A program made the position numbers and the translations under genes. This document shows positions 3,254-33,972 of a stretch of DNA of 35,391 bases, one piece after another. Position 1 is the stretch's first letter. Each line of letters opens with the position of its first letter. Origin of the DNA: an uncultured Lachnospiraceae bacterium (GTDB lineage Bacteria > Bacillota > Clostridia > Lachnospirales > Lachnospiraceae). The stretch is from NCBI GenBank assembly GCA_902789175.1, contig CADANF010000037.1, positions 1-35,391 on the forward strand, given 5' to 3'. Below the pieces are notes generated by a model, which saw nothing but the letters and a program-made list of their open reading frames with translations, did not search any database and was not told the origin of the DNA.

Positions 3254-3290
3254 GTTAATGAGCCATGGTCCCGGGGAGTAGGATCATTTT
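3254..3290. repeat. degenerate 55-bp palindrome copy (A)
   Basis: GTTAATGAGCCATGGTCCCG followed by GGATCATTTT shows the left arm and core of the intergenic palindrome family, with the A-tract and right arm eroded. It lies upstream of the gene at 3333. Confidence 0.5.
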
Positions 3291-3332
3291 CGGGAAGATT
3301 TCATTTGAAGCATGGTTTAAAGGAGTAGGGCC

Positions 3333-4331
3333 GTGGGAAAAAATAAATGGAAGGGAAAAAGTAAAAGAAAGAATGGGGAATCTGGCGAAAATAAGCTTCC
3401 AATAGGTGTGACATTAGTGCTTATACTGCTTGGCAGCGTTGCATTTGTCATGTTTTGTGTGGGTACCGGGTTTATGATTGATGCGATCGTAGCTTTTAGT
3501 ACCGGCGACGTGAAGTCTGGCGAAGTGGCAAAATATATATGGAGAATAGTACCGGTAGGGATAATACATATTATCTTTTTTATTGCATTTTGCCTGGATG
3601 GAATACCTGGTTTGAAAAAATCAAAGGAGGAATCCTATAGGGAAGATATTTGGGGGATATTCCTTATTGTAATGGCTTTTTCGGCAGTCGTATTGATGGC
3701 GCTGGCAGGGAGATACGGCAGGGAGATGGATGGTATAATAGGGTTTTTGACCCTGCCTGCTATAGGTGTTTTAGTCACGCCTAAGATGGTTAAAAGTGAG
3801 TTGAATAAGATGAAGAAATGGGAAAGTTCATCGGTCGGGCTATCATTTGCAAAAGATGAGAAAAATATTTATAAGGTGAGAAAACCTGTTTCATTTGAAA
3901 GAAGGCTCTTCTGGGAAGTGTTTAAGTATCAGATGAAGATGGCGTTGGGAGCAATTTTAATTATTACCGTTTTGATCATTATGGCAATACATAGATTAAC
4001 TCACAAAACTCACTGGACAGGAAGGGCTGCATATAGAGGTCCATTTTATTCATTTACTTTAATTGTAGGGGTATGTATATTTGCAATTCCGGCAGTTATA
4101 GTTTTTTTGACAAAGACAATTTACAAATTGAGTATCGTGAAGAGACAAAAATATAAAGCCTATCATGTTACGGCAAAAAGGGCGAATGATAAGGCGGTTA
4201 TAGTTGAGTTCGGTAATAGAGTTAAAAGTTTTAAGTATCCTCAGTGCGTAGGCATAAGGAAAAAGAAGATCAATGATACAAAAGCGACTTTGATTCTGCT
4301 GCCGGATCTGGTAATGATCTTTCCGGATTAA
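3333..4331 (+). CDS. polytopic membrane protein of unknown function
   Basis: 332 residues starting at a GTG placed 7 bases after an AAAGGAG ribosome site (3319-3325). The first 20 residues are strongly basic (K/R-rich, cytoplasmic). Six hydrophobic segments follow at about residues 27-53, 68-88, 104-125, 130-148, 203-220 and 236-262, then a basic C-terminal domain of about 70 residues. No motif of a known enzyme or transporter family is evident. It is flanked on both sides by copies of the intergenic palindrome and appears to be a single-gene unit. Confidence 0.7.
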   Translation: MGKNKWKGKSKRKNGESGENKLPIGVTLVLILLGSVAFVMFCVGTGFMIDAIVAFSTGDVKSGEVAKYIWRIVPVGIIHIIFFIAFCLDGIPGLKKSKEESYREDIWGIFLIVMAFSAVVLMALAGRYGREMDGIIGFLTLPAIGVLVTPKMVKSELNKMKKWESSSVGLSFAKDEKNIYKVRKPVSFERRLFWEVFKYQMKMALGAILIITVLIIMAIHRLTHKTHWTGRAAYRGPFYSFTLIVGVCIFAIPAVIVFLTKTIYKLSIVKRQKYKAYHVTAKRANDKAVIVEFGNRVKSFKYPQCVGIRKKKINDTKATLILLPDLVMIFPD

Positions 4332-4372
4332 AAGTGATTTGGACCATGGTCCCGGAGGCAATGGTCCACTTT
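4331..4372. repeat. 55-bp palindrome family copy (B), variant
   Basis: GGACCATGGTCCCGGAGGCA followed by ATGGTCC, flanked by AAAGTG and CACTTT. It begins at the stop codon of the preceding gene and joins copy C almost directly. Confidence 0.7.
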
Positions 4373-4374
4373 CG

Positions 4375-4429
4375 GTTAACATAAAAATGAGCCATGGTCC
4401 CGGGGGCAATGGCCCACTTTTATGTTAAC
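4375..4429. repeat. 55-bp palindrome, full copy (C)
   Basis: GTTAACATAAAA and TTTTATGTTAAC arms enclose GAGCCATGGTCCCGGGGGCA and a matching right arm. An eroded third fragment (GGGGGAGTGGCTCATTT) follows at 4434-4455. Confidence 0.85.
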
Positions 4430-4501
4430 CTAGAGCTCGGGGGAGTGGCTCATTTGCTAGTGGCACGTTTTTTACTGAAGTATTTAATGAAAGAGTGATT
4501 T

Positions 4502-4987
4502 ATGAAAAAGATAATTGTTATCGGCTGTCCGGGAGCAGGAAAAAGCTGCTTTTCAAGGCGGCTGAGAGATAAATACAATCTTCCACTTTACTATCTGGAC
4601 ATGATGTGGCATTTGCCGGACAGGACAAATGTTACCAGAGAGGAATTTGCTAAAAAGCTTGAAGAAATTTTAAAAATAGACAGTTGGATCATTGATGGGA
4701 ATTATATAAGTACCATGGAAATGAGACTTAAATATTGCGATACAGTTTTTCTGCTGGATTATCCGTTGGATGTATGTTTGGATGGTGCGAGAAGAAGGAT
4801 TGGAACAAAAAGGGAAGACATGCCATGGATGGAAGAAACATTTGATGAGGAGTTTAAACAGTGGATCCTGGATTTTCCAGAGAAGCAGCTGCCTAGGGTG
4901 TATCATTTGCTTCAGCAATATAAAGAAGGAAAAGAGATTCATATATTTAAGACAAGAGAAGAAGCGGATAAATATTTAGATGAGTGA
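4502..4987 (+). CDS. P-loop kinase, FlaR/adenylate-kinase-like
   Basis: 161 residues. A Walker A motif GCPGAGKS occupies residues 8-15; LYYLDMMWHLPD (about 29-40), IIDGNY (about 63-68) and a lid-like region with RRR near residue 98 follow. This layout is typical of the small NMP-kinase-like proteins annotated as 'DNA topology modulation protein FlaR-related', usually about 160-180 residues. They probably phosphorylate a nucleotide or small metabolite; the substrate is unknown and the 'topology' name is historical. The ribosome site is AAAGAG. The next gene starts 8 bases downstream, so the two are co-transcribed. Confidence 0.8.
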   Translation: MKKIIVIGCPGAGKSCFSRRLRDKYNLPLYYLDMMWHLPDRTNVTREEFAKKLEEILKIDSWIIDGNYISTMEMRLKYCDTVFLLDYPLDVCLDGARRRIGTKREDMPWMEETFDEEFKQWILDFPEKQLPRVYHLLQQYKEGKEIHIFKTREEADKYLDE

Positions 4988-4995
4988 GGATTAAA

Positions 4996-5811
4996 ATGAT
5001 TCAATTTGGAATGCCAACGCTTATTGAGAATAATACTTTAGAGGAAAATATAGCACTTTGCCATAGTCTGGGGCTTAAATTCATAGAACTTAATATGAAT
5101 TTCCCAGAGTATCAGCTGGAGAGTCTTGAACAGACTGATAAACTGATAGAGGCGGCAGAGAAAGCAGGAATATATTATACGATACATTTGGATGAAAATT
5201 TAAATATCGCTGATTTTAACCAGCTGGTTACCGGAGCATATCTGGAAACGGTTCGCCGAACGATAGAAGTTGCAAAGAAACTTATGGTTTTAAGGGATAG
5301 CTACGGAGACAGAAGCCAGCCTCTTACTCTAAATATGCATATGAACCATGGTATATTTATCACTTTGCCTGACAGGAAGGTGCAGATGTATGATCGCGAT
5401 TTTGACAGCTATATAAGTGCTTTCGCAGATTTTCGAGCTAAGTGTGAGGAATGGATCGGCAGCAGTGACATTAAGATTGTTATTGAAAATACTGACGGGT
5501 TCAGGGAGTATGAAAAAAGGGCGATAGATTATCTGCTTCAAAGTGCAGTGTTTGGATTAACCTGGGATATAGGACATTCTAAGGCTACTGGAGAGAAGGA
5601 TGTTTCATTTATTAGGGAACATGAAGATAAATTGATCCATTTTCATATCCATGACGGGATTGAAAAACCACCGAAGAATCACCTGGCTCTTGGCGATGGG
5701 GAGATTGACATTTGGGAGAGATTGAGGCTTGCTGAAAGCAGAAATGCCAGATGTGTTCTGGAAACAAAGACAATAGAAGCACTCAAGAAGTCAGTTGAGT
5801 GGCTTGGTTAA
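4996..5811 (+). CDS. sugar phosphate isomerase/epimerase, TIM-barrel
   Basis: 271 residues of the AP-endonuclease-2-like xylose isomerase fold. Metal-ligand motifs are visible in order: ELN (about residue 32), TIHLDE, MHMNHG, IVIENTDG (Glu ligand), LTWDIGHSKATG (Asp and His ligands), HFHIHDG, and a terminal LETKT (Glu). These enzymes isomerise or epimerise sugars or sugar acids using divalent metal in the cytoplasm; the substrate cannot be inferred. A GTG at 4984 is open, but the ATG at 4996 has AGTGAGG at good spacing. The stop codon TAA lies within the GTTAAC end of the following palindrome. Confidence 0.8.
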   Translation: MIQFGMPTLIENNTLEENIALCHSLGLKFIELNMNFPEYQLESLEQTDKLIEAAEKAGIYYTIHLDENLNIADFNQLVTGAYLETVRRTIEVAKKLMVLRDSYGDRSQPLTLNMHMNHGIFITLPDRKVQMYDRDFDSYISAFADFRAKCEEWIGSSDIKIVIENTDGFREYEKRAIDYLLQSAVFGLTWDIGHSKATGEKDVSFIREHEDKLIHFHIHDGIEKPPKNHLALGDGEIDIWERLRLAESRNARCVLETKTIEALKKSVEWLG

Positions 5812-5861
5812 CATAAAAATGGACCATAGTCCCGGGGGCTGTGGCTCATTTTTATGTTAAC
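5807..5861. repeat. 55-bp palindrome, full copy (E)
   Basis: Starts at the GTTAAC that contains the TAA stop of the isomerase gene. The left arm CCATAG pairs with CTGTGG through a U-G wobble. It shares its last GTTAAC with copy F. Confidence 0.85.
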
Positions 5862-5899
5862 ATAAAATTGAACCATAGTGCCAGGGACTGCGGCTCATT
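5856..5899. repeat. 55-bp palindrome, eroded copy (F)
   Basis: A tandem partner of copy E: GTTAACATAAAATTGAACC, core CCAGGG, then CTGCGGCTCATT. The outer right arm is missing. Confidence 0.7.
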
Positions 5900-5914: not shown

Positions 5915-6583
5915 ATGAAATATAAAAATATAACTAAAGCCATTTTTATAAAAAGACCGAACCGATTTATTGCGGAAGTTGAGGTAGATGGCAAGAAAGA
6001 AACAGTGCATGTAAAGAATACAGGCAGGTGCAGGGAGCTGCTGATCCCCGGATGTGAAGTCTGGCTTACGGCACCGGGGACGCCTGACAGGAAAACAAAA
6101 TATGACCTGGTGGCGGTAAGAAAAAATACAGGTGTCATTTTTAATATTGACAGTCAGGCGCCCAATGCAGTTGTAAAGGAGTGGCTGGCGAAGCAGGATT
6201 TTAGCAAGGTTCTTCCGGAATATAGATATGGGGAATCAAGGATTGATTTTTATATAGAAAAGAAGAAAACTCCAGAGGAAAGAGAAGTCCGTTATCTAAT
6301 GGAAGTTAAGGGATGTACTCAGGAAATCGATGGAGTCGGATACTTTCCTGACGCTCCTACAGAACGGGGAGTTAAGCATATAAGGGAACTGATCAAGGCT
6401 AAAAATGAAGGCTATAAGGCGATTCTTACCTTTGTGATCCAGATGGATGGAGTAGAAGAAGTAAGGGCAAATGTTGCGACTCATCCGGAATTTGGTGAAG
6501 CTATGGAGAATGCCCGTAAAGCCGGGGTAGAGATACTATTCCTTCAGTGCCATGTTACTGAGGACGAAATATATATAAAATGA
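5915..6583 (+). CDS. sfsA: SfsA, sugar fermentation stimulation protein homologue
   Basis: 222 residues, close to the family's 230. The N-terminal OB-like part has RPNRFIAEVEVDG and HVKNTGRCRELLIPG; the nuclease-like C-terminal part has SRIDFYI, YLMEVKGCT, FPDAPTERGVKHIREL and ILTFVIQMDG, which are the signature stretches of SfsA. The E. coli protein binds DNA and influences maltose metabolism; the Asp and Glu-x-Lys residues resemble a PD-(D/E)xK nuclease site, so a nucleic-acid role is likely. The ribosome site is weak (GGGAATTAGT). It is a single gene between palindrome copies. Confidence 0.92.
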   Translation: MKYKNITKAIFIKRPNRFIAEVEVDGKKETVHVKNTGRCRELLIPGCEVWLTAPGTPDRKTKYDLVAVRKNTGVIFNIDSQAPNAVVKEWLAKQDFSKVLPEYRYGESRIDFYIEKKKTPEEREVRYLMEVKGCTQEIDGVGYFPDAPTERGVKHIRELIKAKNEGYKAILTFVIQMDGVEEVRANVATHPEFGEAMENARKAGVEILFLQCHVTEDEIYIK

Positions 6584-6603: not shown

Positions 6604-6654
6604 GTTAACATAAAAATGGACCATAGTCCCGGGGGCTGTGGCTCATTTTAATAT
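6604..6654. repeat. 55-bp palindrome copy (G), right arm eroded
   Basis: GTTAACATAAAAATGGACC, core CCCGGGGG, then CTGTGGCTCATTTTAATAT. It lies about 20 bases after the sfsA stop and directly before the antiporter ribosome site. Confidence 0.75.
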
Positions 6655-6670
6655 AAAGAAGAGGATTAAT

Positions 6671-7849
6671 ATGTTAGTAAGTATTGCACTAATTATGATA
6701 GTAGGGCTCATTTTAGGATGGCTATGTAAAAAAGTTAAATTGCCCAGCCTGATAGGAATGCTGATAACGGGCATTGTTTTGGGACCTTACATCTTAAATG
6801 TTATTGATAAATCAATTCTTGCGATTTCGGCAGATATCAGGAAAATGGCACTGATCGTCATTTTAACAAGAGCAGGCCTAAGTCTTGATATTGCGGGACT
6901 AAAAAGAGTTGGAAGGCCGGCTGTTCTGATGTGTTTTGTACCGGCCAGTTTTGAGCTTTTGGGAATGATAAGTATAGCGCCTAAGTTGCTGGGAATATCG
7001 GTTATGGAAGCGGCAGTTATGGGGGCAGTGCTTGCTGCGGTTTCTCCTGCGGTTGTCGTGCCTAGAATGGTAAAACTTATGGAGGAAGGTTATGGAACAA
7101 ATGAACAGATTCCACAGCTCATCCTTGCGGGGGCATCAGTAGACGACGTCTATGTGATAGTTTTATTTACCACATTCCTTGGAATGATCCAGGGAGGGGA
7201 AGTTTCGGTTGTAAGATTTGTAAATATTCCAGTCTCGATCATTCTTGGAATTATTATAGGAGTCCTTGCAGGATGGGCACTTTCTTTTTTATTTAAAATG
7301 ATACATATGCGGGATACAGTGAAGATCATGATAATACTTTCGGTATCATTTTTGCTGGTATTCCTGGAGGATAGCTTAAAGACGGCGGTTACATTTTCAG
7401 CACTGATATCTATCATGTTTATTGGGGTTGCGATGCAGAAATACCGCAAGGCAGTGGCTTTAAGACTTCAGTCGAAGTTTAACAAGCTGTGGGTCATCGC
7501 GGAAATATTCCTGTTTGTTTTAGTGGGAGCGACTGTTGATATAAGCTACCTTAAGAATGTGGGAATTAAAGCGATTTTAGTTATCATTGGGGCACTGATT
7601 TTTAGAATGCTGGGGGTTTTTGTCTGCTTGCTTGGCACAAAGCTAAGTAGTAAAGAAAGGCTGTTTACCATGATGGCTTATACGCCAAAGGCGACGGTGC
7701 AGGCCGCAATCGGAGGAATCCCATTAAGCCTTGGACTTGGCTGTGGCAATATAGTCCTTACAGTGGCAATCCTTGCCATCGTGATCACAGCACCACTGGG
7801 AGCATTTGCAATAGACAGCACATATAAACGATTCTTAGAACAAAAATAG
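6671..7849 (+). CDS. cation/proton antiporter (NhaP/KefB-type fold)
   Basis: 392 residues, almost wholly hydrophobic, with about 12 membrane spans. The first helices read GWLCKKVKLPSLIGMLITG, then VLGP, as in the Na+/H+ exchanger domain. VVSPAVVVPRM-like sequence (about residues 130-140) and the ASVDDVYVIVLFT stretch (about 158-170) match the conserved core, with the paired Asp expected to carry the ion. It probably exchanges Na+ or K+ for protons in the inner membrane. An upstream GTG (6638) lies inside a palindrome copy; the ATG at 6671 follows GAAGAGG and is preferred. No C-terminal TrkA domain is present. Confidence 0.85.
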   Translation: MLVSIALIMIVGLILGWLCKKVKLPSLIGMLITGIVLGPYILNVIDKSILAISADIRKMALIVILTRAGLSLDIAGLKRVGRPAVLMCFVPASFELLGMISIAPKLLGISVMEAAVMGAVLAAVSPAVVVPRMVKLMEEGYGTNEQIPQLILAGASVDDVYVIVLFTTFLGMIQGGEVSVVRFVNIPVSIILGIIIGVLAGWALSFLFKMIHMRDTVKIMIILSVSFLLVFLEDSLKTAVTFSALISIMFIGVAMQKYRKAVALRLQSKFNKLWVIAEIFLFVLVGATVDISYLKNVGIKAILVIIGALIFRMLGVFVCLLGTKLSSKERLFTMMAYTPKATVQAAIGGIPLSLGLGCGNIVLTVAILAIVITAPLGAFAIDSTYKRFLEQK

Positions 7850-7892
7850 TTAACATAAAAGTGGACCACACTCCCCGGGACTATGGCTCATT
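7849..7892. repeat. 55-bp palindrome copy (H), truncated
   Basis: TAGTTAACATAAAAGTGGACC begins on the G of the antiporter stop codon; the core is CCCCGGG and the right arm ends early at GGCTCATT. Confidence 0.75.
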
Positions 7893-7914
7893 AGGTCCTA
7901 AGTTTTACTTTTTG

Positions 7915-7943
7915 TTGAAAAAAAAGACCTGTGGAAGTATACT
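7915..7943 (+). promoter_or_regulatory. sigma-A promoter of the DUF4132-type operon
   Basis: TTGAAA (7915-7920) and TATACT (7938-7943) are separated by exactly 17 bases. This is the only good promoter before the gene at 8062, leaving a leader of about 110 bases. Confidence 0.6.
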
Positions 7944-8061
7944 GAAAACCAGGTAGAAGCTTTTAAAAGCCTAATAATAAACGCAGAGAACTAGTGTAAA
8001 ATGAAGCACAATAAAAGCCAAAATACCAGTGAGAAAAGAAACATTTCGGGGATTGCTTTCA

Positions 8062-8550
8062 ATGGAAATATTGATAAATTTAAAAACACTTGGGAAAAAG
8101 AGCAGAAGGATAAGACCTGTTTCTTTTATCTATGAAAAAAAGCCTGAGACTTTGAGAGAGTTTATTGATCAGACGGTACTGATTATGGTCAGGACTTTTA
8201 AGGAAAGGCAGAAAAAATCAAAAGAAGGATTTTTGCCAGAAGCTTTATCAGAACAAGCTATTAATGACATGGCGGAACTGGGTAAGGTGGCCTTTGGTTA
8301 TATCTATAACGAAAATGAAGTCAGCGAAGAAAAGGCTATAAAGACTGCAGAAGATGCAGTAATAGACGGCCTGGTTAAAATTTTTATAAATGGCTCTGAT
8401 ATAACCGATATGGCTCTTGATTTAAGAAACGTAGAGATTGATGAGATAGAAGCCTTTTATGCTTCTCATTTAGAGAAAAAAATTGAAATAAATGAGGGTG
8501 ACCAGGTTACATTTGTGAAGCTTGCAATGCTTGCAGGAAGAAGATGGTAG
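8062..8550 (+). CDS. small conserved-looking protein heading the DUF4132 operon
   Basis: 162 residues, soluble. The order is: a basic strand-rich head (MEILINLKTLGKKSRRIRP), PETLREFIDQTVLIMVRTF, a charged helical middle, and an ending GDQVTFVKLAMLAGRRW. I believe short genes of this type recur directly before DUF4132 genes, but that is recollection. The head could be a beta-grasp-like fold (two strands then a helix); this is speculation. The start at 8062 follows CGGGGA at 9 bases; a GTG at 8029 lacks a ribosome site. A terminator-like hairpin stands between it and the next gene. No catalytic motif is visible. Confidence 0.7.
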   Translation: MEILINLKTLGKKSRRIRPVSFIYEKKPETLREFIDQTVLIMVRTFKERQKKSKEGFLPEALSEQAINDMAELGKVAFGYIYNENEVSEEKAIKTAEDAVIDGLVKIFINGSDITDMALDLRNVEIDEIEAFYASHLEKKIEINEGDQVTFVKLAMLAGRRW

Positions 8551-8554
8551 TGTG

Positions 8555-8587
8555 AAGCCGATTCTGATGATAGAACCGGCTTTTTTT
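8555..8587 (+). terminator. terminator-like hairpin inside the operon
   Basis: AGCCGATTCT and AGAACCGGCT pair with one mismatch around GATGAT and are followed by seven T. It lies between the 162-residue gene and the large gene at 8609, so it may make transcription of the large genes partial. Confidence 0.65.
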
Positions 8588-8608
8588 GTAAGATTCTAGG
8601 GAGGGTTT

Positions 8609-10735
8609 ATGGAGATTTCAGAAATTAAAGAACTTGGAAAGAAAGTGGAACGTGAATATATAGAAGGGGATAAAAATAAGATTAAGGAATTCGGGACAGA
8701 AGTTTCTAACTTATTGGAAAAATTAGATAATAATTGTAGTTTTTATTCTAATTCCTGTGTTGAGAACTGTCTTGGGAAGGAATTCAGGTTAGCCTTAAAA
8801 AATAATGTAAAACCTTCAGATTTTTTTAAGTCCAATATTAATAGAATGCAGGGCTTTATAAGTGATGAGCTTCTGCCTTATTTTTATATATCGCTGGACA
8901 GTGTGAATCTCTGGCAGATTGACAGAGGACATAGCTATAGGCAGTCATACAGGGCAAAGTCTGACTATCTTGCTTATATCGATGATGTAAGAGAAATAAT
9001 AAGAGAATATAGAGCACTTACCAACTATGGAGTAGATCTTTATGATATTTTAACTGAAAATGTTTCCGAGGAATTAAAGGCTTACTTTGAGACATGGTCT
9101 TATAAGTATCCTAGACTTGAGTATTATCTTGCTGCAAGACTGGATCAAAAGGATGAAAAGTTAGAGGAAATCCTTACAGATATCTTCTTTGGACAGACAG
9201 GGGAAATAAAAGATAGCTATATCCGTGCCATTTGCATGAGTCATAATGAAAAAATGTATGAAGTTCTGGGAAAGACTCTGCTGGCAGCCAGACTTTCTGA
9301 GGGTTTAAGACAGTCTAGTGTTGAAAATGCAGATTATGGAACAATAGAGGCATTTAAGTATCTCTTAAAGGTAATTAAAGATAATAATCTTATAAGATAT
9401 TCATCAATACAAAGAGCTATCTGTACTTATTTAGGACTTATCGCTAATTATGACAAGCCTATAGACAGGATTACAAATAAAGAACTGAATCTTATGGTAG
9501 ATGCTTTGGAAGATGAAAATGAGAGACAGGCTATGCTTGAGTCTAAAGATGCCGTAAAGTGCTATGTAGGACTTTGGGCAGGTGCCCTTATTGATGTGGG
9601 CACGGCTTATAAGGATGTGGTGTCATTAGTAAATCAGGATGATCCTTTTAGAAGAAAAGTTGCCTGCTTTTTCCTGATAAATGGCTCTTTTCCTTATTCA
9701 AGAGAAAGTATCTGTAAGGGTATTGTGAGAAATTATTATGATGATCTGGAACTTATGGCAATAATAATGAAGGATTTTATGTCTGGTGCTTCATCATGTA
9801 TGCGTAAAGAGTTATATCCGGATAATGACAGGTTTAATAGGAAGTTTTATGAAAGAAAGCATGTCTATGCAGATTACAGCTATTATTTTGATAGCCTTGA
9901 AGAGACAAAAGAATTCCTTGATATCTTTTATAAAATACTTGAAATTATGCCAAAGAAGGGAGTGACATTTTCTCCTTCAGTTTTTCCATGGAATGATGAA
10001 ATCCTGACAAGAAGTGATTTATGGGAAAGAATAGGATTTTTAGTGTCTGCTCTTAAGGATGAAGAAGGAATACTTAATGTTGCAAGAAATTTAAAAGAGT
10101 TAACTGGAGAGTGGGGTGGAAGTAGAGAAGATATGATAGATCTCTTGCTTAGAGAACCTGAATCAAAAGAGCTTATGGAAATCCTTACTCTTGAAATAGC
10201 TGATGCAGGAGAAAACTCTAGAAAGCTGGCCTATAATCTCTTGGTGCAGGAATTAATATGTGACAGATCAGAGCATGTATGTAAGGAACTTGTAGCTCCA
10301 AAGGGACAGCTTCCTGAATGTTCATATATGATATTAGAAGATCTTCTCAGACTGAAGAAAGCAGATGTGAGAAGCAACATTTTAAAGTTACTAAAAACAA
10401 GACCTTATGATAAGCAGATAGAAATGCTTAAGAGACTCTTAAAAGATAAGAAAGAAGAAAAAGTTACTGCTGGGCTTGATATTATAATGCAGCTTAAGAA
10501 AAATAACAGTCCTTACTTTGAGGAAGCAAAGAAATGCATGAATCTTCTTTCTGACACAACAACAAAAGAACAGATACTCATTGATGAAATTTTAGAAAAT
10601 AGTGCAGAGGAAAAGGTTGAGATGGAAAGTCTGTTTGATAAGACAGCTGCTTATGATCCACAGATCGATGAAGAATATGTGGCTGATGCCATTGATACAT
10701 TCCTTGAAACCTTTAAGGAAAGTTCTATAGGGTAA
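8609..10735 (+). CDS. large helical-repeat protein, N-terminal half of a DUF5724/DUF4132-type protein
   Basis: 708 residues, soluble, nearly all alpha-helical by composition. The C-terminal third (about residues 470-690) reads like HEAT or armadillo repeats, e.g. LTGEWGGSREDMIDLLL and CSYMILEDLLRLKKADVR. A clear GGGAGG ribosome site precedes the ATG. The frame ends with TAA at 10733-10735, but the same frame is open again at once and continues for another 1053 residues that carry the DUF4132 region. I infer that the pair is one protein of about 1765 residues interrupted by a stop, or a split gene. Related E. coli proteins (YehI/MolR) are of unknown function and lie by MoxR-type ATPase and VWA genes; none is present here. 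Confidence 0.75.
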   Translation: MEISEIKELGKKVEREYIEGDKNKIKEFGTEVSNLLEKLDNNCSFYSNSCVENCLGKEFRLALKNNVKPSDFFKSNINRMQGFISDELLPYFYISLDSVNLWQIDRGHSYRQSYRAKSDYLAYIDDVREIIREYRALTNYGVDLYDILTENVSEELKAYFETWSYKYPRLEYYLAARLDQKDEKLEEILTDIFFGQTGEIKDSYIRAICMSHNEKMYEVLGKTLLAARLSEGLRQSSVENADYGTIEAFKYLLKVIKDNNLIRYSSIQRAICTYLGLIANYDKPIDRITNKELNLMVDALEDENERQAMLESKDAVKCYVGLWAGALIDVGTAYKDVVSLVNQDDPFRRKVACFFLINGSFPYSRESICKGIVRNYYDDLELMAIIMKDFMSGASSCMRKELYPDNDRFNRKFYERKHVYADYSYYFDSLEETKEFLDIFYKILEIMPKKGVTFSPSVFPWNDEILTRSDLWERIGFLVSALKDEEGILNVARNLKELTGEWGGSREDMIDLLLREPESKELMEILTLEIADAGENSRKLAYNLLVQELICDRSEHVCKELVAPKGQLPECSYMILEDLLRLKKADVRSNILKLLKTRPYDKQIEMLKRLLKDKKEEKVTAGLDIIMQLKKNNSPYFEEAKKCMNLLSDTTTKEQILIDEILENSAEEKVEMESLFDKTAAYDPQIDEEYVADAIDTFLETFKESSIG

Positions 10736-10750
10736 GACTGTTATCAGGCT

Positions 10751-13700
10751 TTGGGTTTAAAAAACAGAAATAAGAAGTTTAAATTGATTGACAGTATAAG
10801 GATGAACAAGGCTGCAAAGGAAGATATAGAACTCCTTTTTGATATAGATAATCTTGTCAGAGAAAATGAAAATCTTGAATATGACAGCTACTCTGAACCA
10901 GTGCTTATTTCAAGAAGTTTAAATTATCTTTATGAAAATGGAAAGTGTACGTACAGACTTCCATATGAGGAAATCTGGGATAAATTTTATGAAGAGAGAA
11001 ATATCAAAGAGGCCAGTCTTGTAAGACTTAAGCATAATATGTTTTATGTTCGACAATATAATACCAGCCTATTCTTTTCTGATTTTCGTCCTGTATTTGA
11101 AAAGATTTACGGTCCTATCATTCGCATGGAACAGGTAAATAAACTTAAATATAGAAGTCAGGTTCTTTGTCTTTTAGAGTATTTCCTTAAAAAAACAGAT
11201 TATAAGAAGAATAGGGAAAAATATTCTATAGCCATTGGATATTATCTTTTAAATTGTAATGAAGAAATAAGAGTAAAGTACAAGGAAAAAGAGATAAAGC
11301 AAAATTATTATCAGCCAAGACAAAGAAAACATGATCCGGATCAGATCTTTATCAAGAGCATTTTTGAAATGGAATTTATCAGAAATGATATTTTCACAGA
11401 ACACACTGATGATAGATTTTTTCCATTATATTTCCTCATTGATAAGGAGATAGAAGAGGTAAATAAGTTAAATGCCTCTTTTAATGGCGATTATTATTAT
11501 ATCCAAAGCAAACTAGAGACGATTGATTATCTTTCAGCTTTTATAAACGGATATATTACAGAGGACTTTATGTATCGTATGCTTCTTTCTAAAGCACATA
11601 TCGAAAATACATTTGAGGCCATTTCAGATCTTTATGTGAAAGTAAGGGAGAGGGATAAGAGGAAAGAAACAAGAGAAAAAACCTATTATTTCAGAAAAGC
11701 TAGCAGACTTGAAAAGTTCTTAAAGATAGAAACAGATAAAAATGATAATTTAAGCAGTGATAAATTTGAATGCCTTGATGAAATACAAAAGAAAAAAGTA
11801 GATCTTATATGCAAGGTTTATGAAAAAATCTTCTCGGCTGTTCTTAGAACGGAACTTTATAGAGGTGAGACAGAAACTGAATATTCAAGTTATATATCTA
11901 AGATAAAGAGGATATATGGAGTAAAAAATTTCGTACAGATTCTTTCAGCATTAGGACAGGATACAATAGATAGATCTGGAATTAGTTATTACAGAAATAG
12001 TATTGTAACAAAGAGGAGCAGTCTCTCTTATCTGCTGGGAATATGTGTTCCGGATTCAAAAGATGGAGACATTCCGGCTCAGGCAAAGCTTCTTAAAGAG
12101 CTGATAAGTGGCAGGGATATAAAGGAAAGCAGGCTGATAGAGGCCGGGCTTTTTAGTCTGGAATGGCTGCCTGTTATAGAAAAATATCTGGATTGGCCAT
12201 ATTTTACATCAGGGGCTTATTATTTTATTGCGCACATGAATGATAACTTTAGCGATGCAAAGAAGGCTATGATAGCTAAATATACTCCTCTCACAGCGGA
12301 TGAGCTTAATATTGGAGCGTTTGATGTCAACTGGTTTAAGGAAGTATATGCAGGTCTTGGCAAGAAGAGGTTTGATCTTATCTACAAGGCGGCAAAATAT
12401 ATCTCTGATGGAACAAAACATACAAGAGCAAGAAAGTTTGCTGATGCAGCCAGCGGTATTTTGGAAATTACCAGTACTGAAGCAGAAATTGAGGCGAAGA
12501 GAAATAAAGATCTTCTTATGGCCTATGCACTTATACCAACTGATAAGAAAGACGAAAGTGTCAGAAAGTATAATTTTATACAGAGATATGTAAAGGAATC
12601 AAAGAAGTTTGGAGCTCAGAGAAGAGCCAGCGAAAAAGCTGCCGGAGAGATGGCCATAAAGAATATGGCTAGAACTGAAGGTTATGATGAGACCAGGTTC
12701 ATAATGATGATGGAAAGAAACATTTCCCAAAAAATGTCAGTTTATTTTGAGGAAAAACCTTTGCAGGATTACAAGGTCTTTCTTTCGGTTGAAGAGGACG
12801 GAAAAGTTAATCTGTCAGTAAAGAAAGATGATAAGGTATTAAAGTCAATTCCTGCGGCCATTAAAAAGGATGAATATATACTGGAATTATCTGATGCTAA
12901 GAAGACTTTTACGGATCAGTATAAAAGAACCAAGCAGATGCTAGAAGAAGCTATGGAAGATGAGACTGAGTTTTTCCTTTCAGAGATTCTTAGTATTTCC
13001 AAGGATCCTGTGTTAGGTCAGATTGTAAATAAACTGGTGTTTAAACATGATGATTTCTTGGGATTTGTTGAAGACTTTAAAGATAAGGGATTTAAGGATG
13101 ATGATAAATTTGTGATTGCTCATCCATATCATCTTTTTAAGCAGGGCAGATGGCATGAGTTTCAGAAGATCTGTTTTGAAAAAACTATAAAGCAGCCTTT
13201 TAAACAGGTGTTCAGAGAATTATATGTAAAGGATGAAGACGAGTTAAAGTCAGATAAATCCGTAAGATATGCAGGAAATCAGATAAGACCAAAGATGGCT
13301 ATGGCTCTTCTTAAGTCAAGACGCTGGATTCCGGATTTATATGAAGGAATTCAGAAGGTCTATTATAAAGAAAATATAATAGCCACAATCTGGGCATTAG
13401 CTGACTGGTTTTCTCCTAGTGATGTGGAAGAACCAAATCTGGAGGCGGTTATATTTTTTGACAGAAAGACATTTGAAAAAAAGGCGATAAGTGAAATTCC
13501 TGATATCATCTTCTCAGAAGTAATGAGGGATGTGGATCTTGTTGTAAGTTGTGCTCATGCGGGTGATATCGATCCTGAGATGACTCATTCTACAATAGAG
13601 ATGAGAAGGGCAATAGCAGAATTCCTTATACCTATGTTCAAGTTAAAGAATGTGGAACTTAAGGAAAGTCATGCTATTATAAAGGGGCAGCTGGCAACTT

Positions 13701-13912: not shown

Positions 13913-13966
13913 TTAACATAAAAGTGGACCACACCCCCCGGGACTATGGTCCACTTTTATGTTAAC
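13912..13966. repeat. 55-bp palindrome, full copy (I)
   Basis: Begins on the last base of the DUF4132 gene's TAG. GTTAACATAAAAGTGGACCA pairs with TGGTCCACTTTTATGTTAAC; the core contains CCCCCCGGG. As RNA it is a strong hairpin with a T-tract, so it probably ends this operon. Confidence 0.9.
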
Positions 13967-17505: not shown

Positions 17506-17570
17506 TGCAAGTTTACATAAAAATGGACCACTGCCTCCGGGACCTAGGTCCATTTTTATGTAAACTTGCA
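17506..17570. repeat. 55-bp palindrome copy with extended arms (J)
   Basis: GTTTACATAAAAATGGACC and its complement surround CTGCCTCCGGGACCTA. The dyad continues outward through TGCAA/TTGCA and is followed by eight T, making a good second terminator before the acyltransferase. Confidence 0.85.
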
Positions 17571-18739: not shown

Positions 18740-18908
18740 CTAGTATAACGTTCGCAAAATAACTGGACTAATGCGCTGAATGCTTGCTCGAGAGTGCGTC
18801 TCAAAAAACGTAGGCGTAGCGGGCTACGCTGAGGATGGATTTTTGAGGCGTGCTATCGATGTAAGCAGGCAAGCATTCAGTCCAGTTATTTAAGTGACGT
18901 TATACTAG
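18740..18908 (+). mobile_element. MITE-like inverted-repeat element, copy 1 (169 bp)
   Basis: CTAGTATAACG at one end and CGTTATACTAG at the other. The arms pair over AAATAACTGGACT and GAATGCTTGC, with a central GCGTAGC-GGG-CTACGC hairpin. No coding capacity. Nearly identical copies occur at 25211 and, inverted, at 32461. It fills most of the space between the acyltransferase and the surface-protein gene. Confidence 0.85.
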
Positions 18909-18979
18909 TATTGTCCATCAAAATATTGAGAATAAAAGAAGGCAGAACAATATAGAGAGAAAAAATGGAGGGGCATAAA

Positions 18980-23780: not shown

Positions 23781-23834
23781 TTAACATAAAAGTGGACCAT
23801 GGTCCCGGGGGTTGTGGTCCATTTTTATGTAAAC
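23780..23834. repeat. 55-bp palindrome, full copy (K)
   Basis: Starts on the last base of the flavoprotein gene's TAG. GTTAACATAAAAGTGGACCA, core CCCGGGGG, right end CATTTTTATGTAAAC. It separates that gene from the TSCPD gene. Confidence 0.88.
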
Positions 23835-24113: not shown

Positions 24114-24226
24114 GTTTGACATAAAACTGAGTCATGGTCAATGAGCCTGGGTACGGAATAAACTGAAACATGGTCCCGGAAATGAGCCTGGGTCTCGGGG
24201 AGTATGGCCTGTTTTCAGATTTGACT
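24114..24226. repeat. eroded and rearranged palindrome copies (L)
   Basis: TTGACATAAAACTGAGTCATGG and a second fragment ACTGAAACATGGTCCCGG, with AATGAGCCTGGGT duplicated at 24140 and 24181 and an outer TTTTCAGATTTGAC arm. Two or more old copies seem to have decayed here. No gene is present between 24110 and 24590. Confidence 0.5.
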
Positions 24227-24262: not shown

Positions 24263-24287
24263 CAGTAATTGTTTGAATTAAATAAAA

Positions 24288-24380
24288 AGATAAGCGGGAG
24301 CTTGTGTGCCAGGCTGAGAGGAAGTAAAGAACTTCGACCGGTAACCTGATTTGGATAATGCCAACGTAGGGATGATAAAC
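24288..24380 (+). ncRNA. TPP riboswitch (THI element)
   Basis: The conserved blocks GCGGGAGC, GGCTGAGAGG, ACCGGTAACCTGATTTGGA and TAATGCCAACGTAGGGA are present in the right order and spacing. The aptamer binds thiamin pyrophosphate. The terminator at 24422 gives a classic transcription-attenuation switch that turns thi genes off when the vitamin is plentiful. Confidence 0.95.
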
Positions 24381-24421
24381 TGAATTTTAAAGATCAGCTT
24401 GTTTTAATTTTACGATTTTTT

Positions 24422-24521: not shown

Positions 24522-24576
24522 GTTAACATAAAAATGGTCCATAGCCTCCGGGACCTAGGTCCACTTTTATGTTAAC
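24522..24576. repeat. 55-bp palindrome, full copy (M), in the thiE leader
   Basis: GTTAACATAAAA and TTTTATGTTAAC enclose a less perfect stem (GGTCCATAG against CTAGGTCC). It lies between the riboswitch terminator and the thiE ribosome site (AAAGGAG). Confidence 0.88.
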
Positions 24577-24590: not shown

Positions 24591-25214
24591 ATGGCAGATA
24601 AAAAATTATACTTCATTACGGACAGTTCAGAGTATGAGAGGGATGAATTCCTTCGAAGAGTTGAAGAGGCATTAAAAGCCGGGGTTTCTTTGATACAGCT
24701 CCGTGAGAAGAATAAAACTACAAGAGAATATATAGAAATAGCGACAGCGGTGCATGATCTGACAAAAAATTATAATGTGCCTCTTATAGTAGATGACCGT
24801 GTGGATGTGATGCTGGCAGTCGATGCAGAAGGGGTCCATCTTGGCGCAGAAGATATGCCACTTGATATGGCAAGAAAGCTGATCGGTACAAATAAAATAT
24901 TGGGTGCCACAACAAAAACAGTAAAAGCCGCTAGAGACGCTTATGAAAATGGAGCTGATTATCTTGGGGTTGGAGCTATTTACCCAACCACCACAAAGGT
25001 TAAGACTATCATTACTTCGACAGATACGCTTTCAAAAATCTGTAAAAATGTTCCTATCCCCGTTTTTGCGATAGGTGGTCTTAATCCTGCGAATTTAGAT
25101 GTGTTAAATGGAATCAATATTGAAGGGGTTTGTGTGGTATCAGCTATCATGAAAGCTGAGTCACCTTATAACGCAACATTAGAGATGCAGAGAGCAATCT
25201 CCAAGCTGAACTAG
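24591..25214 (+). CDS. thiE: thiamin phosphate synthase
   Basis: 207 residues, the usual length for this TIM barrel. Motifs: ITDSS near the start, IQLREKNKTTREY (about 35-47), PLIVDDRVDVML, VHLGAEDMP, GATTKT, YLGVGAIYPTTTK (pyrophosphate loop) and FAIGGLN. It joins HMP-pyrophosphate and thiazole phosphate to give thiamin phosphate. It is the first gene after the riboswitch. Its stop codon TAG is part of the CTAGTATAAC end of MITE copy 2. Confidence 0.95.
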   Translation: MADKKLYFITDSSEYERDEFLRRVEEALKAGVSLIQLREKNKTTREYIEIATAVHDLTKNYNVPLIVDDRVDVMLAVDAEGVHLGAEDMPLDMARKLIGTNKILGATTKTVKAARDAYENGADYLGVGAIYPTTTKVKTIITSTDTLSKICKNVPIPVFAIGGLNPANLDVLNGINIEGVCVVSAIMKAESPYNATLEMQRAISKLN

Positions 25215-25378
25215 TATAACGTTCGCAAAATAACTGGACTAATGCGCTGAATGCTTGCTCGAGAGTGCGCCTCAAAAAACGTAGGCGTAGCGGCGGGCTA
25301 CGCTGAGGATTTTTGAGGCGTGCTATCGATGTAAGCAGGCAAGCATTCGGTCCAATTATTTAAGTGACGTTATACTAG
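25211..25378 (+). mobile_element. MITE-like inverted-repeat element, copy 2 (168 bp)
   Basis: The same ends and orientation as copy 1, inserted at the very end of thiE and before thiS. Small differences are confined to the centre (GGCGTAGCGGCGGGCTACGC) and a few arm bases. It could form a long hairpin in the thi mRNA. Confidence 0.85.
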
Positions 25379-26401: not shown

Positions 26402-27190
26402 ATGGTAGATAATAAAAAAAATCTAGATAGTGACAAGTTGGTGATCGGCGGCAGGGAGTTTAATTCCCGCTTTATCCTTGGGTCGGGCAAATATTCCATG
26501 AAGCTTATCGAAGCTGCTATAAAGGATGCCGGTGCTGAGATAATCACACTTGCCGTAAGACGTACAAATACAAAGGAAGAGGAAAATATCCTTGATTTCA
26601 TTCCTGAAAATGTAACCCTCCTTCCTAATACAAGCGGCGCAAGAAATGCAAAGGAAGCTGTAAGGATCGCCCGGCTGGCAAGGGAATTGGGCTGTGGTGA
26701 CATGGTAAAGATTGAGATCATGAAAGATACTAAATACCTTCTTCCTGATAACTATGAGACTATCAAAGCCACAGAAATACTCGCAAAAGAGGGCTTTATC
26801 GTAATGCCTTATATGTATCCGGATCTAAACTCAGCAAGAGAACTGGTAAATGTCGGTGCGGCGTCAGTCATGCCTCTTGCTTCACCTATAGGTTCGAATA
26901 AAGGTCTTGCCACAAAAGAATTCATACAGATTTTGATTGATGAGATAGATCTTCCTATTATTGTTGACGCAGGCATTGGAAAGCCTTCTCAGGCCTGCGA
27001 AGCAATGGAAATGGGGGCTGCTGCAGTTATGGCAAATACAGCCCTTGCTACAGCAGGTGATCTTATGCTTATGGCATCAGCTTTTAAGGATGCGATAAAT
27101 GCAGGCCGTAAGGCTTATCTTTCAGGGCTTGGCCGCGTACTCCAGAGAGGAGCACAGTCCTCAGATCCACTCACAGGATTTCTTAGATAG
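26402..27190 (+). CDS. thiG: thiazole synthase
   Basis: 262 residues, TIM barrel. The N-terminal [17 protein letters not shown], the MVKIEIMKD stretch with the lysine that forms a Schiff base with deoxyxylulose phosphate, the [10 protein letters not shown] loop, and [20 protein letters not shown] and [11 protein letters not shown] phosphate loops are all present. It condenses DXP, dehydroglycine and ThiS thiocarboxylate to the thiazole. The ribosome site is AGAGGA. It pairs with thiH just downstream. Confidence 0.96.
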
Positions 27191-27242
27191 AAGTAGAAAT
27201 AGTAAGGAAAGCGGCACAGTATTCCTTATCCAGGAGGCAGAT

Positions 27243-28499
27243 ATGGAGAATCATTTTTTTGTAGATTCGGATGAATTATCCCCAAAGGCATTGGAGATCA
27301 AGCATAGAATAGAGACTGATCCAAAGGCCAGAACAAATCATATGGAATATCTTCCGGGGATGGATGTTCTTAAGTCAGATATATGTGAAAAAGTAATGAG
27401 TCATATGAAATCATATGACTACAGCAAATACACAGCGTTGGATGTAAGAAGAGCGCTTAACCATGAAAGATGCACGATTGATGATTTCAAGGCACTTCTT
27501 TCACCGGCGGCAGAGCCATTTTTAGAGGAAATGGCGAAGAGAGCAAGCCAGGAGACGAGTAAGCATTTTGGCAACACGGTTTACATTTTTACGCCGATCT
27601 ATATTGCAAATTATTGCGAGAATTACTGCATTTATTGCGGTTTCAACTGCTATAACAAGATAAATCGCCTGAAGCTCAGCCTTGAAGAGATTGAGCATGA
27701 GATGAAAGTTATCAGCGACAGTGGAATGGAGGAAATCCTTATACTTACCGGGGAAAGCCCAGCCATGTCAGATGTAAGATATATCGGCGAGGCAGTTAAG
27801 ATTGCAAGAAAATATTTCCGCATGGTTGGAATCGAGGTTTACCCTGTAAATGTTTCTAACTATAAATATCTCCATGAATGTGGCGCGGATTATGTTACGG
27901 TTTTTCAGGAAACCTACGACACTGATAGATATGAGCAGCTACATTTGATGGGAAATAAGAGAAGCTGGCCATACCGTTTTGATGCACAGGAAAGGGCCCT
28001 GATGGGTGGAATGAGGGGAGTTGCATTTTCAGCGCTGCTGGGACTGTCAGATTTTAGAAAGGATGCGCTGGCGACAGCCCTACATGTATATTTCCTGCAG
28101 CGAAAATATCCTCATGCGGAAATGTCACTTTCCTGCCCAAGACTTAGACCTATCATAAATAACGAGACCATAAATCCACTTGATGTGGGAGAAAAGCAGC
28201 TCTGTCAGATATTATGTGCGTATAGAATCTTCCTTCCTTTTGTCGGGATCACGGTATCATCCCGCGAATCGGCACAGTTTAGAAATGGAATCGTAAAGAT
28301 AGCTGCGACTAAGGTATCTGCCGGAGTTTCAACGGGAATTGGAGATCATGAAGATAAGTATGAAAAAAGAAAAGAAGCAACGGATGTACATGGCGACGAG
28401 CAGTTTGAGATAGCCGACGAAAGAAGCCTTCAAAATATGTATAGTGACATTTCTGCGGAAGGCCTTCAGCCGGTATTAAATGACTATATCTTCACTTAG
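27243..28499 (+). CDS. thiH: 2-iminoacetate synthase, radical SAM
   Basis: 418 residues. The radical-SAM cluster motif is CENYCIYC at residues 125-132 (CX3CX2C), in the context NYCENYCIYCGFNCYNKI, followed by the ILTGESP region and a C-terminal part typical of ThiH. It cleaves tyrosine to dehydroglycine and p-cresol under anaerobic conditions for ThiG. The ATG at 27243 has CAGGAGG 7 bases upstream; earlier in-frame codons overlap thiG and are not used. Its TAG stop touches palindrome copy N. Using ThiH rather than the oxygen-dependent ThiO fits an anaerobe. Confidence 0.95.
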   Translation: MENHFFVDSDELSPKALEIKHRIETDPKARTNHMEYLPGMDVLKSDICEKVMSHMKSYDYSKYTALDVRRALNHERCTIDDFKALLSPAAEPFLEEMAKRASQETSKHFGNTVYIFTPIYIANYCENYCIYCGFNCYNKINRLKLSLEEIEHEMKVISDSGMEEILILTGESPAMSDVRYIGEAVKIARKYFRMVGIEVYPVNVSNYKYLHECGADYVTVFQETYDTDRYEQLHLMGNKRSWPYRFDAQERALMGGMRGVAFSALLGLSDFRKDALATALHVYFLQRKYPHAEMSLSCPRLRPIINNETINPLDVGEKQLCQILCAYRIFLPFVGITVSSRESAQFRNGIVKIAATKVSAGVSTGIGDHEDKYEKRKEATDVHGDEQFEIADERSLQNMYSDISAEGLQPVLNDYIFT

Positions 28500-28553
28500 T
28501 TAACATAAAAATGGACCACAACCCCCGGGACTGTGGTCCATTTTTATGTTAAC
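28499..28553. repeat. 55-bp palindrome, full copy (N), between convergent genes
   Basis: Begins on the G of the thiH TAG and ends 10 bases before the stop of the leftward ABC permease. GGACCACA...TGTGGTCC with CCCCCGGG in the middle, flanked by A- and T-tracts. Its position between converging genes fits a terminator working both ways. Confidence 0.92.
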
Positions 28554-29396: not shown

Positions 29397-29400
29397 CAGA

Positions 29401-32451: not shown

Positions 32452-32460
32452 GTGTTGAGT

Positions 32461-32623
32461 CTAGTATAACGTCACTTAAATAACTGGACCGAATGCTTGC
32501 CTGCTTACATCGATAGCACGCCTCAAAAATCCTCAGCGTAGCCTGCTACGCCTACGTTTTGAGACGCACTCTCGAGCAAGCATTCAGCGCATTAGTCCAG
32601 TTATTTTGCGAACGTTATACTAG
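32461..32623 (-). mobile_element. MITE-like inverted-repeat element, copy 3 (163 bp, inverted)
   Basis: The same element in reverse: CTAGTATAACGTCACTTAAA at the left and TTTTGCGAACGTTATACTAG at the right. It starts 9 bases after the AraC-type stop codon. The centre is a few bases shorter than in copies 1 and 2. Confidence 0.85.
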
Positions 32624-32685
32624 GGAGTTTTTATCGAATCAACGCTTACCGAAACTTAATATCTCTGGGATTCACTATGGGACTA

Positions 32686-32740
32686 CTTTACATAAAAATG
32701 GACCACAGCCCCCGGGACTGTGGTCCATTTTTATGTTAAC
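32686..32740. repeat. 55-bp palindrome, nearly full copy (O)
   Basis: CTTTACATAAAAATGGACC to CATTTTTATGTTAAC, with GGACCACAG/CTGTGGTCC-like arms around CCCCCGGG. The 62 bases between MITE 3 and this copy show no gene. Confidence 0.88.
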
Positions 32741-32756
32741 TTGATGGAGAGTGAAA

Positions 32757-33467
32757 ATGCAAGGTTTAATGATAGGAATAGGAGTGGGAATTGCTCCAGG
32801 AATGCTTACAGATGAGGCAAAACAGGCAATCAAAATGGCGGATATGATAACCATCCCTGTTGAAGATAAAGAAAAAAGCAGGGCTTATAAACTGGCTGAA
32901 TCAGCGATTCCTGAATTAAAAGATAAACAGATCTTAATGCTTGATTTTAAGATGGAAAGAGATAATAAACTTGAGTCAGAGAATCATTTGCAATTATATA
33001 AAGTAATTAAAGAGTATATTAAGCAAGGGAAAAATGTGGCATTTCTGACTATCGGTGACCCTGCAATATATTCTACATTTTCTTATATGATGGACAAAGC
33101 AAAGACCGATGGGATCTGCTGTAAAATGATAAGTGGGGTTTCTGCTGTATCTGCCTGTGCGGGACGGCTGGGGATTCCTTTATCTTGCGGAAATGAAATG
33201 ATACATATAATTCCAGGGATTGAAAACCTTAAGGAGGTTCTGGATTATCCTGGAACGAAGGTAATCATGAAATGTGGTAAAAATATAGCTAAAGTTAAGC
33301 AGATTCTTAAAGACTACGAAGAAAGAAACTTAAAGTCAGGAATTAAAATTGCTATTTACGCAGTTTCAGAATGTGGTATGATAGACGAGGCTTGTTATGA
33401 GGGAATTTCAAATATCCCTGATGATGCAGGTTACATGACTACAATCATAGTAAAAAAAGCAGATTAA
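32757..33467 (+). CDS. tetrapyrrole methylase-like protein, CbiL-like
   Basis: 236 residues. The overall pattern is that of precorrin-2/cobalt-factor-2 C20-methyltransferases: an N-terminal GIGVGIAPGMLT, VAFLTIGDPAIYSTFSYMMD (about 96-115), MISGVSAVSACAGRLGIPLS and a C-terminal TTIIVKK. These enzymes transfer a methyl group from SAM to the corrin ring. The N-terminal GPGDP loop of the family reads GIAPG here, two residues shorter, and no other cobalamin gene is nearby. Its activity or substrate may have changed. The ATG at 32757 follows GGAG; the GTG at 32751 is too close to it. Confidence 0.7.
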   Translation: MQGLMIGIGVGIAPGMLTDEAKQAIKMADMITIPVEDKEKSRAYKLAESAIPELKDKQILMLDFKMERDNKLESENHLQLYKVIKEYIKQGKNVAFLTIGDPAIYSTFSYMMDKAKTDGICCKMISGVSAVSACAGRLGIPLSCGNEMIHIIPGIENLKEVLDYPGTKVIMKCGKNIAKVKQILKDYEERNLKSGIKIAIYAVSECGMIDEACYEGISNIPDDAGYMTTIIVKKAD

Positions 33468-33519
33468 AAAACAAAAATGGACCATAGTCCCGGAGGTTGT
33501 GGTCCACAATTATGTAAAC
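33465..33519. repeat. 55-bp palindrome copy (P), left end eroded
   Basis: Overlaps the TAA stop of the CbiL-like gene. ACAAAAATGGACCATAGTCC, core CCCGGAGG, right end GGTCCACAATTATGTAAAC. The left GTTAAC is lost to an A run. Confidence 0.75.
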
Positions 33520-33552
33520 TGGATAAGGATAGAGAATAAAGGAGAAATAAAA

Positions 33553-33918
33553 ATGACTTGTTTAGGAAATATCATATGGATGATCTTTGGAGGAATCTGG
33601 AGTGCATTAGGATGGTGCATAGCCGGCATACTCTGGTGTATATCGATTGTTGGAATACCAGTGGGACTTCAATGTTTTAAGCTGGCATCTATATCCCTTG
33701 ACCCATTTGGAAAAGATATAGAATATGATGGAGGAGCGGGATCATTTATCTTAAATATCATCTGGTTTATTGTTTCAGGTATGGAACTTGCCTTAGGAAA
33801 TGCCATTATTGGTTTGATATTTTGCATGACAGTTGTGGGAATTCCTTTTGGCCTGCAGTTCTTTAAAATCGCAAAACTGGCTCTTTGCCCATTCGGCGCA
33901 AGAGTAGTAAGAAAATAG
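33553..33918 (+). CDS. yccF: YccF-family inner-membrane protein
   Basis: 121 residues built from two similar halves. Each has NIIW, a hydrophobic helix pair, VGIPVGLQCFKLASISLDPF or VGIPFGLQFFKIAKLALCPF, and then G-R/K. This duplication and the VGIP-GLQ-FK motif define the YccF family. It is a small membrane protein of unknown function, possibly a partner of a transporter. AAAGGAG sets the start at 33553; a GTG at 33499 lies in a palindrome copy. The TAG stop touches the next palindrome. Confidence 0.92.
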   Translation: MTCLGNIIWMIFGGIWSALGWCIAGILWCISIVGIPVGLQCFKLASISLDPFGKDIEYDGGAGSFILNIIWFIVSGMELALGNAIIGLIFCMTVVGIPFGLQFFKIAKLALCPFGARVVRK

Positions 33919-33972
33919 TTAACATAAAAATGGACCACAGTCCCGGGGGCTGTGGTCCATTTTTATGTTAAC
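33918..33972. repeat. 55-bp palindrome, perfect-type copy (Q)
   Basis: The most regular copy: GTTAACATAAAAATGGACCA and exact complement at the right, GGACCACAG pairing with CTGTGGTCC around TCCCGGGGG. It begins on the G of the yccF TAG. Confidence 0.95.

Follow-up and report, generated by a model that had tools for sequence, protein, structure and literature searches.

The window analyzed here is a stretch of 35,391 nucleotides from an uncultured Lachnospiraceae bacterium (assembly GCA_902789175.1, contig CADANF010000037.1), in which a 55-bp palindrome recurs between genes. A preliminary description counted about 17 copies and took them for a mobile, ready-made bidirectional terminator. The locus raises the question of what this palindrome is and what its copies do. 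We consider it probable that the repeats are atypical repetitive extragenic palindromic (REP)-like elements, double-ended, about 57 bp long and with the foot GTTN, which belong to a single-copy REP-associated tyrosine transposase (RAYT) gene inside the array, and that the copies serve as exchange points. The palindromes are tied to the RAYT because the gene and the element-rich state coincide in the same four genomes.

The palindrome and its RAYT gene

The element is an imperfect palindrome with GTTNAC at its left end and GTNAAC at its right end. All nine full copies of the preliminary description were found as 55-bp imperfect palindromes. All 17 sites hold a copy or a remnant, but 24114 is a mere mosaic of fragments and 4434 was recognised by eye (Table 1). 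The GTTAAC ends described earlier stand in the looser form GTTNAC/GTNAAC, with copy 32686 as the exception. The sharing of GTTAAC between adjacent copies was confirmed: copies 5807 and 5856 overlap at 5856–5861, and the remnant at 4329–4372 leads into the GTTAAC of copy 4375. With one further base on either side, the unit measures about 57 bp (R-GTTNAC...GTNAAC-Y): among 149 co-directional copies a purine precedes the element (A 0.62, G 0.30), and a pyrimidine follows full copies (T 0.52, C 0.40). Most feet read GTTA and others GTTG or GTTT, with AC coming next, and a GTAG foot does not occur. Many copies retain their left end but stop at position 42–49 and so lack the right TTATGTTAAC (L034, L037–L040, L044, L047, and window copy 7849).

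The genome of the window is a 2,749-kb draft in 78 contigs, with the window as contig 37. A genome-wide count had been proposed as a check, and the exact arm GTTAACATAAAANTG gave 84 matches (52 on the plus and 32 on the minus strand). The repeat is not due to chance, because the reversed pattern gave 0 matches in the same genome. By our own arithmetic, 74 of the 84 arm matches fall into eight blocks that add up to about 97 kb, or about 3.5% of the genome. The element family reaches beyond the window and is packed into few arrays.

A covariance model made from 24 copies was run on 61 genomes of the genus. With matches on both strands included, it gave 83 to 92 in four genomes (92 being the number scored), 2 to 4 weak matches in five, and none in 52. 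The exact-arm search, whose set of 61 genomes lacked the other two element-rich carriers, found many matches in two genomes and one each in three others. A 21-base arm was also searched in 84,980 species genomes, a set possibly without the genome of the window. All 49 stretches found came from three Lachnospiraceae assemblies, namely UBA3772, Eubacterium sp. RGIG507 (cattle duodenum), and SRR12081298_bin.41 (also labelled G066). These three relatives are metagenome-assembled. Viral contigs held 0 exact matches to the element, and no record in the plasmid and phage collections spanned 80% of the element query at E up to 10. The literature searches gave no paper whose title or abstract deals with this repeat or with Lachnospiraceae REPs.

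An orthologue of the RAYT gene with at least 87% identity was present in exactly four of the 61 genus genomes, which are the four element-rich ones. Relatives with at most 39% identity were present in 17 other genomes. The orthologue in G066 is truncated by a contig end (residues 1–125), and the gene has elements on both sides in three genomes. The RAYT appears to be maintained, since the motifs HVH and YIHNNP are present and dN/dS is 0.13 to 0.19 (three pairs). Its family assignment suggests a Y1/HUH single-stranded DNA nuclease; no solved structure matched it at E 1.

Sister RAYT genes in the genus were compared. The RAYT of congener G011 sits among copies of a different palindrome. The core of this palindrome occurs 103 times and, among the matches listed, forms dense runs on contigs 11 (round the RAYT), 13, and 15 (L201–L205). 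The palindrome core of G002 occurs 83 times and, among the matches listed, is more scattered, with a cluster at the RAYT; that of G005 occurs once. Among 30 palindromes measured in G011, 16 are 53–57 bp long. Twenty of the 30 lie amid co-directional or convergent open reading frames (ORFs), two amid divergent ones, and eight inside predicted ORFs, and exact stop-codon contact was not seen for any of them. The sister palindromes carry GGGGACGG, which is close to GGGGWSAS.

The gene context was counted for 184 copies of at least 35 bits in stretches of the four species, with lower-scoring matches excluded and orthologous copies counted separately. The copies were in ++ (98) or −− (49) context, 147 co-directional in all, or in convergent (18) or divergent (6) context, inside predicted ORFs (8), or at sequence ends (5). 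Each convergent context contributes two stop-to-element distances. Of the 164 distances below 80 bases, 74 fell at −4 (25), 0 (30), or +1 (19); the others were 2–3 (3), 4–15 (50), −9 or −6 (6), or longer (31). At distance −4 the element provides TAA, and at distance 0 its first G completes TAG, as in the window at 7849, 13912, 23780, 28499, and 33918. In the genome of the window, 20 of 51 copies in co-directional context touch the stop codon. The copies are mostly at gene 3′ ends and are often in contact with the upstream stop codon.

Gene blocks and exchange points

The gene order of the arrays is kept among close relatives, and the differences are whole inter-element blocks. The element-bearing stretches of all four species were scanned for indels, with rows of at least 250 bp. 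The 59 indel rows comprise 16 in which both ends and also the shorter sequence carry elements, 18 in which elements stand at part of the junction, and 25 free of elements; the share of the sequence taken up by elements plus 20-bp margins is 2.8%. We grouped the 16 two-ended rows into nine loci, with the SfsA gene of the window among them. The shorter version keeps one element: UBA3772 has a single element in place of the element-SfsA-element of the window. Within the three-ORF block of the window, 8609–13912 encodes two large proteins, one with DUF5724 and the other with DUF5724, DUF4132, and DUF7737.

RGIG507 carries a four-ORF unit of 3.6 kb that is absent from the genome of the window and from UBA3772, and no close copy of it was found in either whole assembly. 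Gain of this unit is the simplest reading with three of the four genomes compared, because UBA3772 is more distant than the genome of the window. Ten tests compared missing segments with the stretches analyzed from the genome lacking them; seven gave nothing, two gave only relatives at 67% and 75%, and one gave only internal element copies. Congener G029 (99% complete, no model match) has relatives of four consecutive window blocks on four contigs, at 62–73% identity, and they may not all be orthologues.

Read in gene direction, the one element left usually has the upstream flank that belongs to the first element, and its body is that of the second. Two of the nine loci (window 4375 and SfsA) gave no usable crossover interval, an element end being lost. 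The exchange intervals of the other seven, with the best comparison for each, were 1–24, 5–52, 1–39, 5–21, 1–13, 1–24, and 1–16 of 55. A single exchange point near positions 5–13 is compatible with all seven. By our own arithmetic, a common point would arise by chance with a probability of about 0.0025 under uniform crossover, with the better-fitting comparison used at loci where two relatives were compared. The second comparisons disagreed at three loci: C38:22128 against UBA3772 gave 48–52 (further right ungapped), C39:6015 against UBA3772 gave 1–4, and C38:18384 within the genome of the window gave 1 or less, the first element there having no left end. At the SfsA locus, the single element resembles the first element at its right end, an end that the second element has lost. 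Left and right arms are unlinked across the family.

We propose that the RAYT spreads the element via single-stranded hairpins, probably near its own locus, and that insertions survive where the upstream gene is spared. Once numerous, the copies would serve as sites of exchange, for which recombination between direct repeats is the simplest route, and the gene blocks of an array would become removable. As a by-product, the RNA hairpin may end transcription at some sites. IS200/IS605-type transposition is known to leave no target duplication, and the lack of such duplication at the elements fits a RAYT-borne REP-like element.

Table 1. Elements, blocks, and genes of the window, with the RAYT gene on contig 38 of the same genome.
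Feature	Coordinates	Strand	Evidence or remark
Eroded copy	3254–3290		profile search, 14 bits
Eroded copy leading into next element (site 4331)	4329–4372		profile search, 29 bits
Full palindromic element	4375–4429	+	profile search
Right-half fragment	4434–4454	+	by eye, no profile match
Full element, provides TAA stop of ORF 4984–5811	5807–5861	+	profile search, ORF list
Partly eroded copy, GTTAAC in common with 5807–5861	5856–5899	+	profile search, 32 bits
SfsA gene (PF03749), inter-element block absent from UBA3772 array	5915–6583	+	relative comparison, domain search
Element, right end eroded	6604–6658	+	profile search, 53 bits
Element without right end; first G completes TAG of ORF 6638–7849	7849–7892	+	profile search, 43 bits; ORF list
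Three-ORF block, absent from UBA3772 array, one element there instead	7893–13911	+	relative comparison
Full element; stop codon completed by first G	13912–13966	+	profile search, ORF list
Full element, ends GTTTAC/GTAAAC	17511–17565		profile search
Full element; stop codon completed by first G	23780–23834	+	profile search, ORF list
Mosaic of element fragments	24114–24215		profile search, just 8.5 and 11.6 bits
Full element in thi leader, TPP riboswitch (24284–24389) 5′, thiE-like ORF at 24591 3′	24522–24576	+	profile search, Rfam
Full element amid convergent genes; first G completes stop of ORF 27099–28499	28499–28553		profile search, ORF list
Full element, CTTTAC left end	32686–32740		profile search
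Eroded copy	33465–33519	+	profile search, 39 bits
Full element; stop codon completed by first G	33918–33972	+	profile search, ORF list
IS630-type transposase (DDE_3)	34194–35384	−	at contig end
RAYT-like gene (PF01797; 261 aa), single-copy	contig 38, 17549–18334		inside array, element 49 bp away on one side

The window also holds a second dispersed repeat of about 170 bp at 18739–18912, 25210–25378, and 32461–32623. Its copies on contigs 4, 8, 20, 37, and 41 of the same genome share 94–96% identity, and copies at 80–89% occur in several congeners. The ORF at 20261–20678 encodes tandem NVSPETK repeats followed by a C-terminal hydrophobic stretch and, judged by eye, is surface-protein-like.

Competing explanations

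Several observations weigh against RAYT-borne palindromes acting as exchange points. The foot differs from GT[AG]G, the copies are not genome-wide as in most REPs, and cleavage by this RAYT is putative, as judged from its family. Related palindromes stand on both sides of only three of the seven congener RAYT genes located in ten stretches; the four genes without them are shorter. The 25 indel rows without an element and the 18 with elements at part of the junction point the same way. Each indel comparison includes at least one metagenome-assembled genome, and the compared stretches were selected for holding elements. In congener G002, relatives of SfsA and of a FeoB-like gene (named by eye) lie about 12 kb apart among the matches listed; the blocks are therefore not unlinked in every congener. 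Identity steps across elements are not larger than those between other neighbouring ORFs (62 versus 88 pairs, p = 0.26), and allele swapping bounded by elements was rejected on this result.

The mobility proposed earlier gains support from the type of element and its matching RAYT, but movement was hardly seen. In 292 of 296 element comparisons among relatives, rows that are not independent, the element was at the same place in both, and four had it in one genome only. One of these four (UBA3772 C41:1196 against RGIG507) looks like an element missing from between one pair of genes shared by both, with no clean joint of insertion.

The strongest rival is ordinary homologous recombination, or slippage during replication, between the scattered palindromes. 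The RAYT would then play no part in gene exchange, and the left bias would come from polymerase stalling at the base of the hairpin or from chance. The junctions inside a 55-bp direct repeat, the arms shuffled across the family, and the comparisons that put the exchange elsewhere all suit it. Homologous recombination alone explains neither the stop-codon contact nor the co-occurrence with the RAYT. Among the possible exchange mechanisms, homologous recombination is placed first, at a little short of an even chance.

An integron-like cassette platform built on a domesticated HUH transposase is unlikely, at well below that level. Here the array is centred on the RAYT and the unit is one element with the following gene or genes; a cut in single-stranded DNA at one constant base close to the palindrome's left end (about GTTN|AC) would let the unit be joined to, or removed from, another element by site-specific exchange without homologous recombination. 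The point near 5–13 allowed by the best comparisons at seven of the nine loci fits a fixed cut, and it also fits polymerase stalling at the hairpin base. However, the second comparisons at three loci exclude 5–13, the right end of the single element at the SfsA locus agrees with that of the first element, and the unlinked arms suggest crossovers within the element too. No unit was seen at two places at high identity in the stretches compared.

We also regard as doubtful, to a similar degree, that the family is a ready-made, bidirectional intrinsic terminator preserved because selection acts on the RNA. Hairpins with a U-run are indeed encoded: five intact copies fold with z of −5.7 to −13, four on both strands and the fifth on the plus strand. 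The contexts of the 184 copies, 147 co-directional and 18 convergent but just 6 divergent, also suit a terminator. The eroded copy at 7849, however, folds no better than shuffles (z +0.2), and eroded copies are tolerated. For the mismatch, covariation, and flank tests, copies in co-directional context were de-duplicated by sequence and flank; the mismatch test covered 78 distinct full copies. The G-U pairs of the stem had been read as a hint of selection on the transcript, but gene-strand mismatches were 99 G.T versus 105 A.C, and this hint is not borne out. The core orientation was 40 to 33, with 5 unclassified. Covariation was found for pair 4-52 and the core pairs 21-35, 22-34, and 24-32, whereas the outer arm pairs 13-43, 16-40, 17-39, and 20-36 did not covary (p 0.07 to 0.24); arms changing independently of pairing were what the preliminary description itself had named as evidence against a terminator.

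The copy in the thi leader bears on the same point. The order riboswitch, element, start codon is kept in the window and three relatives (four species), the thiE-like gene being named by eye. This copy counts against a terminator, because an efficient terminator there would silence the operon. Termination is possible at some sites, but it is not what keeps the family. In Rfam, the thiamine pyrophosphate (TPP) riboswitch was the only gathering-score match in the window, and low-threshold matches round one element were all far under the cut-offs. No element reached the gathering score of any family, in agreement with the earlier statement that no named family has this sequence, although the REP/RAYT literature covers this kind of element.

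False joins at short repeats in draft assemblies (the genome of the window has 78 contigs and three relatives are metagenome-assembled) are a very improbable cause, given the ten missing-segment tests and the lack of a close copy of the 3.6-kb RGIG507 unit in two whole assemblies.

In four related genomes, one RAYT occurs together with one element family and with a set of gene-block differences, and within the same genus a sister RAYT is surrounded by arrays of a different palindrome. The link between enzyme, palindrome, and gene exchange is thereby testable. The mechanism of REP spread is described in part of the literature as remaining to be elucidated (PMC8266576). If the enzyme does perform the exchange, it would provide a second, integrase-free way to keep genes as swappable cassettes.

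Likeness to known systems

REPtrons combine REP sequences with a RAYT/TnpAREP gene (PMC3733652, PMC6006769, PMC8266576), and GTAG REPs are reported to provide stop codons and to sit near ORF 3′ ends (PMC3733652). The present system shares the high-copy short intergenic palindromes near ORF 3′ ends (184 copies), the single-copy HUH/Y1 gene flanked by the palindrome, and the palindrome termini that provide stop codons. It differs in its foot (GTTN versus GT[AG]G), its near-symmetric 57 bp, its arrays (74 of 84 in about 3.5% of the genome versus genome-wide spread), and the presence or absence of gene blocks at its elements. One clustered exception, T. roseum GTAG-23, is named among REPs (PMC3733652).

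TIRtrons have a RAYT-like gene (TIRYT) and flanking non-GTAG terminal inverted repeats (TIRs) that form a family (PMC3733652), as here. The motif GGGGWSAS, present in only some TIRs (PMC3733652), is not in the element consensus (24 copies; consensus only), whereas the GGGGACGG of the sister palindromes comes close. The double-foot REPs of subclass 2.4 also have a complementary foot at both ends, but their feet are GT[AG]G ... C[TC]AC (PMC6006769).

An integron was considered and rejected. Integron attC sites end in RYYYAAC ... GTTRRRY. Like attC sites and clusters of attC sites lacking an integrase (CALIN), the elements are palindromes of similar length at gene 3′ ends, with a stop codon in or near the site and removable blocks. 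The element RGTTAAC...GTTAACY has one mismatch to attC at each end, and the blocks here can be multi-gene and reversed. The integron integrase (TIGR02249) was above its 265-bit cut-off in 0 of 41 genomes, and the best match in the genome of the window had 75 bits.

RUP-type miniature inverted-repeat transposable elements (MITEs) are mobilised by IS630, and the window has both a small palindrome and an IS630-type transposase. The contig ends inside this insertion sequence, and no element match lies near it in 33973–35391. TA was present on both sides of 5 of 78 copies versus about 7.6 expected (31 left, 19 right), and there was no excess of direct flank identity at k = 1–8. A TA-duplicating MITE was rejected for lack of TA duplication. 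A parent transposon was also rejected: the gene between two facing ends 950 bp apart on contig C12 is, by eye, like a response regulator and does not encode a transposase. The canonical REP, attC, and the TA-duplicating MITE each fail a defining feature. In its workings the element is comparable to a REP paired with its RAYT, and it has similarities to the non-GTAG TIRtrons.

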